64,000 nt of DNA, taken from Bacteriovorax stolpii. Lineage in GTDB: Bacteria > Bdellovibrionota > Bacteriovoracia > Bacteriovoracales > Bacteriovoracaceae. The notes under the pieces are model-generated. The model had not been told where the DNA came from. It searched no databases and was given only the letters and a program-made list of their open reading frames with translations. Shown in pieces: positions 43,937 to 56,962 of this stretch. Each line of letters opens with the position of its first letter. Position 1 is the stretch's first letter. The position numbers were made by a program, and so were the translations under genes. The DNA lies in assembly GCA_945905815.1 (NCBI GenBank), contig CAMDQH010000006.1, positions 1 through 64,000 on the forward strand, written 5' to 3'.

Positions 43937-44272
43937 TTGGCTAAAAAGAACGATATTTGCGCCATTATAGAAGAAGGTTGCAAGTTTGAAGGCAACCTTT
44001 CATTTAGCGGCACTGTGCGTATCGCTGGATACGTCAATGGAAGTATCTTTTCAAATGACACGCTCGTAATTTCTGAAGGTGCGGTAATTAACGCAGACAT
44101 TAACGCAAATATTGTGATTATTTCTGGATCTGTTAAAGGAACTATTAAAGCGTCCTCGCGTGTTGAAATAAGACGCCCTGCGCGATTTGAAGGAACAGTT
44201 ACTTCACCAAGTCTAATTGTTGAAGAAGGTGTAATTTTCCATGGTATTACAAAGATGAAAGACAAAAAATAA
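43937..44272 (+). CDS. Bactofilin
   Basis: 111 residues of the DUF583/bactofilin family, small cytoskeletal proteins that polymerise as a right-handed beta-helix. The body shows the repeating pattern GSIFSNDTLVISEGAVINADI. No membrane segment is present. The start is TTG at 43937, with GGAG at 8 nt. Some bactofilins act with ParABS to place chromosome ends or cell-wall enzymes, so the position after parB is suggestive. No terminator separates it from the atp genes. Confidence 0.9.
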   Translation: MAKKNDICAIIEEGCKFEGNLSFSGTVRIAGYVNGSIFSNDTLVISEGAVINADINANIVIISGSVKGTIKASSRVEIRRPARFEGTVTSPSLIVEEGVIFHGITKMKDKK

Positions 44273-50159: not shown

Positions 50160-50187
50160 AGGGCCTGCTATGAAGCGGGCCTTTTTT
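50160..50187 (+). terminator. Rho-independent terminator of the atp operon
   Basis: Stem AGGGCCTGCT/AGCGGGCCTT with two G-U pairs and a 4-nt loop, followed by a run of T. It lies 4 nt after the atpC stop codon. Confidence 0.88.
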
Positions 50188-50494: not shown

Positions 50495-52555
50495 ATGTCT
50501 CGATTGCTTACACGGATGTTTGCTTATTTTACGCTCGTTTGTTACCTCGTTGTGGGTTCAATGGCCGTTCGTTTCTATTTGCCAGAAAACGTTTCTATTG
50601 GTTTTTCAACTTCATATTTAAATCTTTTATCGGACTCTTATTTAGAAGCTTCTGGAAGCGAAGAAATCTCAGCTCCTGAAATGAAATTTGCTGAAATTAA
50701 TATTCCAGTTGAGAAAAAAGTTATTCAAATAGTTGCAAAGAAAATTGAAGAGAAATTAACAGTAGTAGTTGTCTCCGTAAATGAACTTCCATTTTATGAG
50801 CCAGTAACATTATCTAAAATTGAAATGAAAGAAGAGCTACCAACTAATATGGTGGCTTTGTATAGGGACTTTAGTTTTGAAGAAACAGTAGTAGCTAAGA
50901 CTGAAGTAGTTACTGATAAAGTTTCTACAGTTTTGGCCGCAGCAGAAGTTACGTCTGAACCAGATTTTTTTGATTATGCAGTAAAGCCAAGCACGGTTAC
51001 TGAAGATAAAAAAGTTGAAGCCGCCACTGACCAGGTTGAAAATCAAAACGTAGCTGACCTAATAGAGCCAACTGAATCTATACTTCCTACAAACGATTCT
51101 GTCGAACCAGAGTTTTTTGACTATCCAGTTAAAATGAGTAGTCAGACAGATAAAGCTTCTACGACAGTTCAAGAGACAGCCAAAGTTGTGGATCCGAAAA
51201 GCCCTGATACAATCATTAATACAAATGCAGTGGCGTTTGATTACTCACATGCCAAACAAGATATTGCAAAACAAGTTATCCCGACAGTGAGTAGTCATAA
51301 GCCTAGAGTAATGGCTGCGAAACCATCACCTCTGCCAATACCATCTGGCAATGATGATAAAAAACCTGATATAAATGCACTCATTGGACCTAAAACATAT
51401 CCGGTTAGCATATCTATACTTGCTCTTGGTAGTGATCTTAAGAAACTAGAAAACTTGAAAGGCTTTGAAGTTAGATTTCAAGACGACTTGTCTGAAATGA
51501 TTGAGGATTACGGCTCAGGGGAAGTTAAGTTTGAAGCTGAGCTAAGTCAGCCCAAAATGACAAGAACTGTAACCATTCTTAAGCGGGGCTACAGTCCTGT
51601 TACTACTGAACTAATACTTGAAGATGGTGCGCCTGGAAGCGTTTCAATTCCATTAATAGAAGAAGATACTTTGAATGATCTTATGGCTCCATATGAAAGA
51701 AAAGGCGCTGTGGGAGTTCTGTTAGTGGAACTTGATGATGATACTGAAGTTGCAAAACTAGATGTACCTTTTGGTGATGTAATTAAACTTAACGGTGATT
51801 TTAAACGTACAAAAAATGATGATTATCGCTATCAGTTGTTTGTAGGGGTTCAGGCCGGGAATGCAATGGTTTCGTATCATGGCAACAATGGGGAAGTAGT
51901 ATCAAAGATTCTTCATGTACACGAAAGCGAAATGACATATGATGCAAATTTTTATGAAGATGTTGTAAATGAAAAAATACGTCTATTTGAAGAGAATTTA
52001 CTAGCAAGAGAAAGTTCACCGTTAATTATTTCTGGTGAACAGGTAAAAATATTTTCAACTAATATAAGTGCTAAGAAAATCAATAACCATACTTATAAAA
52101 TGGCTTTTGGTTCATCTAACTTGGCGGGACGTCGTTACCTGGAATTAAATCATCAGTCAGAGCCTGTATTTGTTGGGATTCGTGATAATAATAATATTAC
52201 AGTGCCTTCAGAAAACTTTATGAACTTCATACTATCAAAGGTAGAAGGTAGAAAGCTTGGTAATAGATGTCTTATTCAAGTTAATTTGAACAAAACAGCG
52301 AATAATGTGGATGTCGCCTCCGAATCAATAGGTCAATCCCTAATGACCTCTACGCAAATGCTTGATAGTGATGGAAAGTTTTATGACTCTCTAAGTGCTA
52401 AAACCAATAAGATTATAATTGTCGGCGAAGGCCAAGCTTCTTCAGATATCTCTCTTGATTCGAAAATTAACATTAAAATTGAATATGAAGATGGAAGTGT
52501 GCAATTTCTAAATTCTTATTGTTCACCTAATACTTATCTTGTCGAACAACTCTGA
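50495..52555 (+). CDS. Large membrane-anchored protein of unknown function
   Basis: 686 residues. An N-terminal helix (MFAYFTLVCYLVVGSMAVRFYL) is a membrane anchor or uncleaved signal. Residues ~60-300 are low-complexity, rich in Val, Glu and Thr, with an imperfect repeat EPDFFDYAVKPS ... EPEFFDYPVKMS. From ~300 on, the sequence looks like folded beta-rich domains (for example YPVSISILALGSDLKKLENLKGFEVRFQDD). I recognise no family; a surface or periplasmic scaffold is likely. It ends convergently, overlapping the transglycosylase gene by 22 bp. Confidence 0.65.
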   Translation: MSRLLTRMFAYFTLVCYLVVGSMAVRFYLPENVSIGFSTSYLNLLSDSYLEASGSEEISAPEMKFAEINIPVEKKVIQIVAKKIEEKLTVVVVSVNELPFYEPVTLSKIEMKEELPTNMVALYRDFSFEETVVAKTEVVTDKVSTVLAAAEVTSEPDFFDYAVKPSTVTEDKKVEAATDQVENQNVADLIEPTESILPTNDSVEPEFFDYPVKMSSQTDKASTTVQETAKVVDPKSPDTIINTNAVAFDYSHAKQDIAKQVIPTVSSHKPRVMAAKPSPLPIPSGNDDKKPDINALIGPKTYPVSISILALGSDLKKLENLKGFEVRFQDDLSEMIEDYGSGEVKFEAELSQPKMTRTVTILKRGYSPVTTELILEDGAPGSVSIPLIEEDTLNDLMAPYERKGAVGVLLVELDDDTEVAKLDVPFGDVIKLNGDFKRTKNDDYRYQLFVGVQAGNAMVSYHGNNGEVVSKILHVHESEMTYDANFYEDVVNEKIRLFEENLLARESSPLIISGEQVKIFSTNISAKKINNHTYKMAFGSSNLAGRRYLELNHQSEPVFVGIRDNNNITVPSENFMNFILSKVEGRKLGNRCLIQVNLNKTANNVDVASESIGQSLMTSTQMLDSDGKFYDSLSAKTNKIIIVGEGQASSDISLDSKINIKIEYEDGSVQFLNSYCSPNTYLVEQL

Positions 52556-53910
52556 TTTCCTAAAAACTTAGACCATTCTTTGGGCTTCTTTTGAATAATT
52601 TGCTTTAAATTGAGCTTATAGAATCGATTGTCCGGTAACTTAACCTTACTAGTGATGATGGTGCCCCGGGGAAAGGCTGTTTTGGTCTGAGTGATATGGT
52701 GATTATAGAAGAGGACATCATCTAGTTGAGATTTATTTAAATTCTTTTCAAGCCCTATAGTGCATTTTGTAAGATAGAAGTCTAAATCATTCTCCATGTT
52801 ATATCGATCATCTCGATGTATATCTGGAAAGAGTTCCTCTTCATAGGCCAGTGCGTGGACGAGAGCTAGAAACTCACTATAAAAATTTTTGGAGGCAAAT
52901 CCAAAATGCTGAGAGTCACTATGCTTAATAATGGCTTCAAGGTTGATATTGTTTTTAGTAGAGGCAAGTTCGCGCTTAGTTTTTAAAAGATGTTTAGTGC
53001 CTGAATTATAGGCCGTTACGGCCATATCCCAAGACTTCATAAGTTTAAAGTTTTCCTTCATAAGCAAAGCCGCTGCAATTGAAATAACTCCAATATTAGA
53101 TCGATAATCGAACTGAGGAGAGATTGATTTTTTTGGCACATAATAGCTAGCAATTAAAGGCATGAACTGCCAGGTGCCCAAGGCACCAACCTTTGACTCT
53201 GCTTTAGGGTTAAAGCTAGACTCAAGAAATGGAACTGCTAGTAACTCTGGTGGTAAGTCATGTTCAGCAAAATAGTTATTTAAGAAGGTTTTATAAGGCA
53301 GGGAACGGATAATCCCATCTTTGATGAAATTCCGTTGTCCTGTCTGGGTTCTGATATTTTCATTAAGTTTTAAAAACACTGCCTGTCGATCAATTTTCTT
53401 AATAGGCAGGTTGATACCGGCTTCTTTTAAGATTTTATATATATTTTTTGAGTCCTGATCGAGACCAAAGGGATTAACGATTAATCTTTTTAGGTCATTT
53501 TTAATCTTAGAAACTCTTTCTGACGAAATTTTTTGCTGAAGAATATATAAAATATTCTTTGATAGACCTTTCTCATGCAAAGAAGAAAAATCTAAAACTT
53601 TATAGATTAGTGAAAGATTGGTTTTGTCATGAATAATGACATGACCAGAATCAAACTGTGTATATATTAAAAACCAAAAATTAACATTGGGGTAATAGTA
53701 CTTTGTAACTGGGAACATGTTAGAAATACGATCGTCTTTATCGTCCAGATAAGACCTGAAGGAGTCTTTAGACATCCAGGCCAGCTCAGTAACATCATCA
53801 TTTTTAACTTTTGGAATTTTTCTCCAAGAAAGATCAGCTCCGAAATATGGGTCAGAAGCCGTTAATAGGCATGCTCCCAAAATTGAAATTATAAGATACT
53901 TTAAAATCAT
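52534..53910 (-). CDS. MltD-like lytic transglycosylase
   Basis: 458 residues with a signal peptide (ILKYLIISILGACLLTAS). The SLT domain is at about 215-330: LPPELLAVPFLESSFNPKAESKVGALGTWQFMP, where the glutamate of LESSFNP is the catalytic acid, followed by YRSNIGVISIAAALLMKENF and WDMAVTAYNSG. It cleaves peptidoglycan to anhydro-muropeptides. The long N-terminal region is unlike E. coli MltD, and no LysM domain is seen. A possible lipobox (ILGAC) sits in the signal, so it may be a lipoprotein. It overlaps the patatin gene by 4 bp. Confidence 0.85.
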   Translation of the reverse strand: MILKYLIISILGACLLTASDPYFGADLSWRKIPKVKNDDVTELAWMSKDSFRSYLDDKDDRISNMFPVTKYYYPNVNFWFLIYTQFDSGHVIIHDKTNLSLIYKVLDFSSLHEKGLSKNILYILQQKISSERVSKIKNDLKRLIVNPFGLDQDSKNIYKILKEAGINLPIKKIDRQAVFLKLNENIRTQTGQRNFIKDGIIRSLPYKTFLNNYFAEHDLPPELLAVPFLESSFNPKAESKVGALGTWQFMPLIASYYVPKKSISPQFDYRSNIGVISIAAALLMKENFKLMKSWDMAVTAYNSGTKHLLKTKRELASTKNNINLEAIIKHSDSQHFGFASKNFYSEFLALVHALAYEEELFPDIHRDDRYNMENDLDFYLTKCTIGLEKNLNKSQLDDVLFYNHHITQTKTAFPRGTIITSKVKLPDNRFYKLNLKQIIQKKPKEWSKFLGNQSCSTR

Positions 53911-55166: not shown

Positions 55167-55505
55167 ATGCATACCATAGATGGTGTTTGGTTATCTATAA
55201 CTGACTATTCAGTATATAAGAAGGTGTCGATTTCAACAATTCGACGTCACATAAAGACCAATGTAATTAAGCATAAAGAGGAAGACGGTAAGTATTTCAT
55301 TTATCTCGCGAATTCAGGCCGAATAAAATTAAAAGAAGAAGAAGAAATACTAAGAGTTAAACTTGAAAACGAACTATATAAATCTCAGATTAGACAGTTA
55401 CGTGAAGAAAATATGGGACTACGTATGCTTGTAGATCTTTATGAAAATAATAATTCGGATTTTTATAAATCGGCTGAACCACCAGAGTTACCAAAGTACA
55501 TATGA
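55167..55505 (+). CDS. Helix-turn-helix plus coiled-coil protein, unknown
   Basis: 112 residues. The N-terminal ~55 residues (WLSITDYSVYKKVSISTIRRHIKTNVIKHK...YFI) look like a winged helix-turn-helix of the MerR/excisionase kind. The rest is a coiled coil (LKEEEEILRVKLENELYKSQIRQLREEN). It has a strong AGGAGG before the ATG. The stop overlaps the next start (ATGA), so both genes are coupled. It may be a small regulator, perhaps of its neighbour. Confidence 0.6.
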   Translation: MHTIDGVWLSITDYSVYKKVSISTIRRHIKTNVIKHKEEDGKYFIYLANSGRIKLKEEEEILRVKLENELYKSQIRQLREENMGLRMLVDLYENNNSDFYKSAEPPELPKYI

Positions 55506-56962
55506 AATTTATTCTGCTTTTAGTTCTAATCTTTCCTATACATGTATTCGCTCAATCTTCAATGAGGCGTTGCACACTTCTGCCAATAACCGACAGTGTG
55601 GGGGGAGCGATTGCTTTTAAAGTATTTGAAAATGTAGAAAATCAATTAAAGAAAAGTAATTGGTGTACTTACGTTTCCAACTCCGGACTGATTAATATTT
55701 TTAGTCGCTACCGGGAAAATTTATCTCAATATCTAAAACAAAAAGAAGTTTTAAAAACAGTTGCAGAAAAATTGCAGGTTGGATCAATTATAAGAGTTGC
55801 CCTCGTAAACGAGATTAAAGGTGTTGAAATCCTGCTTGAAGTTTATGGCGACGATGGGGAAGATTTATATTTTAGTGAAAAAAAATTGGTTGCTACAGAT
55901 GAAATTGAAACGATATCGCAGAATGTAACAAATTGGCTGGATACTTATTCAAAAACCATTCCATATGACGCCAAAATAAATGGCATTTTAGGGGAACAAA
56001 TAACATTAGATGTGGGCAAGGGGTACCCTATTCAAATTGGTCAAAGTTTTGTTGTGAAAAGACCGATAGGAAAAAAGAAACATCCACTTCTAAAGAAAAT
56101 TGTAGACTGGGAAACAGAAGTGCTTGCCGAGGGTAAAGTCTTTAATATTTCTGATAACCAAGCATTGGGTATGGTTAAGGTCTATAAATCTAGTAGCAAA
56201 TTAGTATCCGGTGACTGGGTAAGACTTGAAACATTTAAACAAGATGCTTTTACAGAAAAAAGTTTTGAAGATAAAAAAGACGAGGAACCAGGAACTCTTG
56301 GCATTGTATCAATCGCGGTATTTGGTACTTCCTCTAGCGTTGATACAGTTACACCAACGGGATCTAAAAGGATGATTGGTAATCTTTTTGGATTTGATTT
56401 TCGGGGAGAAGGCTGGATTACTAGACAATACTTTGCTGCTCTTGAAATTGCACGTTCACTTGGCAAACTTTCAGATGTATCAGGCAATCCAGATAAAACA
56501 TCATTAAATTCTCAATTTGGAGTTTTTAAACTAACGGGTGGTTATAAATATTTACCACTTGGATTCTTTTATGGGCCTCAAATAGATATTTACGCCGGAT
56601 ATGCTAGTTATACTTTTGATTTAGATTATTCAGCTACTGATGGTTTTGGTAAAGGAACCATTTCAGGGATTCTATTAGGTGTTACCGCCAATATACCAAT
56701 AAACCGCGAATATAGATTTATGGTGCAAGCTGACTTTCTTCCATTTCCTAGTTTTGAAGACAGTGATTCTATGTATGGAGGTGCTTCTAGTGTATCTGCT
56801 ATGGATCTAGAAATTGGCGTTAAATACAATTACACGCCACGAATGACACTAGATGGCTCGATTGAAACTCTCGCAGGGAAGGCCAAATTCAGTGGTGCTT
56901 TAAAAGAAATATCATACCACGACAATATCAAATTAAAATTCGGTGCTTCCTTTAATTATTGA
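55502..56962 (+). CDS. Secreted protein with possible C-terminal beta-barrel
   Basis: 486 residues. Signal peptide FILLLVLIFPIHVFAQ. Residues ~20-170 recall FlgT/CsgG-like nucleoporin folds only weakly (LLPITDSVGGAIAFKVFENVENQL). From ~260 the alternating pattern (GDFRGEGWITRQYFAALEI-like, ending LKLKFGASFNY with a terminal aromatic) suggests an outer-membrane beta-barrel. Family unknown. It is coupled to the HTH gene upstream and lies 25 bp before ligA. Confidence 0.6.
   Translation: MKFILLLVLIFPIHVFAQSSMRRCTLLPITDSVGGAIAFKVFENVENQLKKSNWCTYVSNSGLINIFSRYRENLSQYLKQKEVLKTVAEKLQVGSIIRVALVNEIKGVEILLEVYGDDGEDLYFSEKKLVATDEIETISQNVTNWLDTYSKTIPYDAKINGILGEQITLDVGKGYPIQIGQSFVVKRPIGKKKHPLLKKIVDWETEVLAEGKVFNISDNQALGMVKVYKSSSKLVSGDWVRLETFKQDAFTEKSFEDKKDEEPGTLGIVSIAVFGTSSSVDTVTPTGSKRMIGNLFGFDFRGEGWITRQYFAALEIARSLGKLSDVSGNPDKTSLNSQFGVFKLTGGYKYLPLGFFYGPQIDIYAGYASYTFDLDYSATDGFGKGTISGILLGVTANIPINREYRFMVQADFLPFPSFEDSDSMYGGASSVSAMDLEIGVKYNYTPRMTLDGSIETLAGKAKFSGALKEISYHDNIKLKFGASFNY

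Follow-up and report, generated by a model that had tools for sequence, protein, structure and literature searches.

A single-copy anchored protein encoded beside atpC in Bacteriovoracia, with conserved short motifs in its linker and a putative role in the cell envelope

Introduction

TonB/TolA-type tethers consist of an N-terminal anchor, a long periplasmic linker and a folded C-terminus. The SPOR-type cell-wall proteins FtsN, DamX and DedD are bitopic and have a flexible periplasmic linker with short functional segments. The 686-residue protein described here has the layout of the first group, but it has no TonB_C, TolA C-terminal or other Pfam match, its linker carries conserved motifs, and its C-terminus is much larger. 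No ExbBD or TolQR gene was recognised among its neighbours at 41495-61752, by eye and among the families scanned, and such partners may be encoded elsewhere. With the SPOR-type proteins it has the predicted bitopic layout and the linker in common, without a SPOR domain match or sequence relation.

Other comparisons concern parts of the protein. The transthyretin-like (TTR-like) family CarboxypepD_reg (PF13620; carboxypeptidase D TTR-like domain, 5aq0) has the fold predicted for residues 301-389 (TMt 0.78). However, our protein has no peptidase domain, further and different beta domains follow the TTR-like one, and none of 30 orthologues had an above-cut-off Pfam match to this family; one sister-lineage homologue scores weakly (E 9e-5, below the curated cut-off). 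Proteins that dock through short linear motifs in the periplasm offer a functional analogy: here too a motif occurs above chance in a variable linker, and its binding is putative. Finally, in two families of the same phylum (f8 and f12), the gene after atpC codes for a protein, usually anchored, that combines a linker with beta domains. These proteins share the locus and a homologous C-terminal region with ours, but lack the FFDY motif and the invariant cysteine pair found in the class family.

Gene, Family and Distribution

The window, that is, the whole stretch of 64,000 nucleotides of Bacteriovorax stolpii DNA that was analysed, contains the following features around the gene.

50160..50183, + strand: intrinsic terminator in the gap that separates atpC from the gene (GC-rich hairpin of 10 pairs, with a T run)
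50495..52555, + strand: gene for the 686-residue anchored linker and beta-domain protein (ATG start, open frame; class orthologues stop-free)
52534..53910, - strand: MltD-like lytic transglycosylase, a convergent neighbour and separate protein (22-base overlap with the gene; Pfam SLT 1.3e-15)

A sequence-only reading had proposed an anchored protein of 686 residues at this place and knew no family for it. The open reading frame was confirmed, and its product aligns with orthologues over the full length without internal stops. Searches with the single protein, with 30 orthologues and with a profile gave no match in Pfam, NCBIfam or the PDB sequences, so the family is as unfamiliar as had been thought. 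We also found no relative among the viral contigs searched, and a literature search on this gene returned nothing.

The source genome has one copy of the gene. In a first search, an orthologue was found in 33 of 58 relatives, all from the same family. Named records among the close relatives were Bacteriovoracaceae and Halobacteriovorax, in a single-protein contig scan that gave three close relatives only. A profile of the C-terminal region then found the gene in 43 of 48 genera and in 117 of the 129 genomes that represent the class, which is taken to be Bacteriovoracia (Bdellovibrionota). Among good-quality class genomes the count was 70 of 73. The copy number was almost always one. The gene belongs to the single-copy core of the class, and its product represents a real, undescribed, class-wide family. 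A near-universal single-copy gene with no described function or family model deserves attention in a class to which predatory bacteria belong.

The gene comes after atpC in 20 loci of one set and in the majority of 40 further loci. Of 51 orthologous intergenic regions, 31 have a hairpin comparable to the strong terminator at 50160-50183. Because of this terminator, the gene is probably transcribed as a separate unit and its linkage to the atp genes is positional; membership of the ATP synthase operon is unlikely. An Rfam Phe_leader match near atpC (E 0.67 and 23.7 bits, where the gathering score is 55) was put down to chance. In most loci the gene converges on the MltD-like lytic transglycosylase and a patatin-like gene, beyond which lie homologues of the genes at 55167 and 55502, and then ligA. 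The MltD-like neighbour in the window matches the NCBIfam murein transglycosylase D model at 4.7e-17, which is below the cut-off.

Anchor, Linker and C-Terminal Domains

The protein was divided into five parts.

50519..50569, + strand: N-terminal membrane anchor, residues 9-25, FAYFTLVCYLVVGSMAV (hydrophobicity)
50573..51394, + strand: long linker, residues 27-300 (composition; linker lengths among orthologues)
51395..51661, + strand: TTR-like beta domain, residues 301-389 (AlphaFold2 pLDDT mostly 70-83; Foldseek)
51662..52249, + strand: conserved middle region, residues 390-585, with invariant G455 (A4 invariant columns; no confident model)
52250..52552, + strand: C-terminal beta domain, residues 586-686, with the cysteine pair C592/C676 (invariant in A4; predicted strands)

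The hydrophobic segment at residues 9-25 bears out the proposed anchor. A VGxxxVR string at its end is kept within the genus, and no consistent signal-peptidase site was found; the anchor is probably uncleaved in this protein. The mode of anchoring varies among members, and in two of them (L086, from G058, and L096) lipobox-like signal peptides (VSAC, QGC) replace the plain helix.

The long low-complexity region was likewise found. The linker is rich in V, E, S, K, A, P and T and free of Trp and Cys, and this composition suggests that it is probably disordered. Its length varies among orthologues from about 65 to 750 residues. Two members, L104 and L106, have very long linkers of about 750 and 650 residues; FFEY is kept in one and no strict motif was found in the other.

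Beta-rich C-terminal domains, also part of that reading, were recovered by AlphaFold2, which placed strands with pLDDT of about 70-85 in residues 301-389 and most of 586-686, in a model built on a shallow alignment of four sequences. Foldseek matched the model of residues 301-389 to 5aq0_B (TMt 0.78) and 6hif_Y (TMt 0.72), both with probability 1.00, and this domain is predicted to have a TTR-like fold. The model of residues 387-600 had a pLDDT of 37. The middle region is nevertheless conserved, and it is the stretch that matches the sister-lineage proteins. Across 35 diverse sequences, three residues are invariant, namely G455, C592 and C676 (the two cysteines are C292 and C376 of A4), and the cysteine pair suggests an exported domain closed by a disulphide.

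The tail YLVEQL forms the last strand of the C-terminal domain in the AlphaFold2 model. The 22 bases shared with the MltD gene are unlikely to explain by themselves why this tail is conserved, since EQL or EQY endings are also kept in loci that lack the overlap or MltD itself.

The Foldseek matches also include S-layer and Gram-positive pilin proteins. They would fit a structural protein of the cell surface, similar to an S-layer, pilin or adhesin with stacked Ig-like domains, in which the linker is a stalk or crosses the outer membrane. However, the top-ranked matches of this kind have a TM-score of 0.2 or less and an rmsd near 18-20, as a generic beta match would. No sorting signal or outer-membrane domain was found in the protein, and a universal single copy with a slowly evolving C-terminus is unlike surface adhesins. 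We consider a surface role very unlikely.

Conserved Motifs in the Linker

Four motif sites were located in the linker.

50915..50941, + strand: linker motif D.V.T..AA (DKVSTVLAA, residues 141-149; 26 of 68 linkers; in shuffled linkers the mean is 1.1 and the maximum 5)
50957..50977, + strand: FFDY site 1, EPDFFDY, residues 155-161 (genus-level copy)
51104..51124, + strand: FFDY site 2, EPEFFDY, residues 204-210 (copy in the closest relatives)
51230..51247, + strand: FFDY site 3, VAFDYS, residues 246-251 (aligns with LVFFDYS, LFFDYS and VFYDYG of other genera)

The sequence-only reading had noticed a pair of FFDY motifs. Both sites are real, but the third was missed, and the pair itself is a local duplication, since most orthologues of the genus have one EPEFF[DE]Y (about residue 157) plus the site near residue 247. 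The EPxFFDY copies are genus-level additions, and VAFDYS is the ancestral site of the whole class. The counterpart of the site near residue 247 in other genera has the form (N/D)(D/E)(D/E)(L/I/M)V(F/A)(F/Y)(D/E)YS, with examples such as NDELVFFEYS, DDLVFYDYS, DEIIAFDYS and EDLVFYDYG.

We compared the 68 orthologous linkers with 200 residue shuffles of the same linkers. The pattern [FYVIALM][FY][DE]Y was found in 42 of the 68, class-wide, whereas after shuffling it was present in 1.1 linkers on average and never in more than 5; these counts treat related orthologues as independent, and the linkers around the sites have nonetheless diverged. A VTTQ-type motif, [VIM][TS]TQ, was found in 19 of 68 linkers (1.2 when shuffled), and D141 of the D.V.T..AA motif is almost invariant in the A1 alignment. 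Since the linker is acidic and rich in hydrophobic residues, FFDY strings might be thought functionless coincidences of low complexity. This explanation is refuted by the shuffle test and by a flanking pattern that is conserved across genera, and its probability is close to nil. The motif is under selection. A docking site would be expected to show this within a low-complexity linker that evolves fast, and the motifs had been taken to be docking sites.

We then asked which proteins carry the motif. In the source genome, just one further protein, a dehydrogenase E1 subunit, has an in-frame [DE]xxFF[DE]Y. At the DNA level, the motif pattern gave 33 matches in 129 class genomes, of which 17 lie by position within the linker of this gene; the other 16 are not above background (28 for the reversed control pattern). 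Judged from these counts, the motif is particular to this protein and is not shared among several proteins.

The same counts would suit an intramolecular latch, in which the C-terminal beta domains of the same protein take up the motif by strand addition, so that the motif controls how extended or accessible the protein is and no outside partner is involved, and the hydrophobic-acidic pattern of the motif is also suited to strand addition. However, the distance from motif to domain varies widely (27-193 residues), a protein may have up to three copies, and the motif is absent from many members with intact C-terminal domains. Such a latch is therefore unlikely in our opinion.

Linker length is also related to the motif. 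A strict motif was found in 1 of 11 linkers shorter than 150 residues and in 41 of 57 longer ones (Fisher p 1.5e-4), counts that share ancestry and are not phylogenetically independent. Most members with the short linkers start with a cleavable-looking signal peptide. The loss of the motif in most short-linker members fits a site that would work on a membrane tether.

Homologues in Sister Lineages and Peptidoglycan Enzymes

The class profile gave weak matches to two proteins of f8 (E 3e-6 and 1e-4), and the f12 proteins match the f8 ones. When the class profile was compared with that of the sister families by hhalign, the probability was 96% (E 4.7e-9, 265 columns). The profile of the sister-family proteins finds 49 genomes. 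The FFDY motif is specific to the class, because a motif-like string was found in only 1 of 30 sister proteins.

An MltD-like enzyme is again the convergent neighbour in 14 of 30 sister loci, within the 1.5 kb flanks covered. The protein might therefore be a dedicated regulator or anchor of this enzyme, with FFDY as the MltD docking site, since the convergent neighbour is kept both in the class and in the sister lineage. However, the sister proteins beside MltD have no motif, and five of the class genomes that have no adjacent MltD (G065, G101, G114, G058 and G112) keep an FFDY-type motif although no clear MltD orthologue was found elsewhere in them; their best matches in the MltD search are weak and only at the level of the SLT domain (E 1e-10 to 1e-14). 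Motif and MltD orthologue are thus not lost together in at least five genomes. MltD was rejected as the sole partner of the motif, and we regard a role dedicated to this enzyme as distinctly unlikely. The docking claim is narrowed to this extent: MltD is a candidate partner that the motif can do without, and the sister lineages do without the motif.

In two f12 loci that were examined, a class A penicillin-binding protein is encoded two genes downstream. In the f6 family, a glycoside hydrolase family 3 (NagZ-like) gene converges on atpC (Pfam E 3e-67; L147:5837-7486 and L153:5897-7495), possibly another peptidoglycan enzyme at the spot after atpC.

Putative Role

The reading we prefer, at about even chances, makes the protein a tether or scaffold of the cell envelope, with a linker motif that would dock a partner in the periplasm or the outer membrane. 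In the topology that we infer, the N-terminal helix would hold the protein in the inner membrane, the flexible linker of roughly 270 residues would run into or across the periplasm, and the tandem beta domains, which a disulphide probably closes, would lie near the cell wall or outer membrane. The motif (D/E)(D/E)(L/I)V(F/A)(F/Y)(D/E)YS, present here in three variant copies, would be the short linear docking site for a periplasmic or outer-membrane partner, perhaps through a strand added to the sheet of that partner. Short linear motifs kept throughout a class in a periplasmic linker are rarely documented, and the short peptide is a direct handle for finding the partner.

A role in cell-wall maintenance may be suggested by the deep linkage to peptidoglycan enzymes, because an MltD-like enzyme or a class A penicillin-binding protein is repeatedly close to the gene. 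This link is circumstantial and weak, since the convergent neighbours are not co-transcribed and the gene order of the region is generally stable. If it holds, the protein would be a new scaffold in the envelope biology of bacteria that remodel their own walls and those of their prey.

A wider proposal, to which we give rather low credence, is an undescribed core envelope system of Bacteriovoracia. Here a periplasm-spanning tether with class-specific linker motifs (FFDY, D.V.T..AA and VTTQ) would organise cell-wall enzymes, having grown from an older phylum-level anchored protein kept beside atpC and near peptidoglycan enzymes.

Other Genes of the Region

A bactofilin gene at 43937-44272 on the + strand (Pfam E 1e-27) lies between parAB and the atp operon, an order that is kept in most class genomes. 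In some genomes, unrelated extra ORFs occupy the space that separates atpC from the gene (335 plus 493 residues, 597 residues, 304 residues and others; for example, L036:10552-13062, L053:3062-4855, L095 and L094). The gene at 55502-56962 on the + strand encodes an exported protein of 486 residues with no Pfam match, and adjoins the locus in nearly all class genomes. By eye, its C-terminal half resembles an outer-membrane barrel, and it is a possible candidate for the partner.
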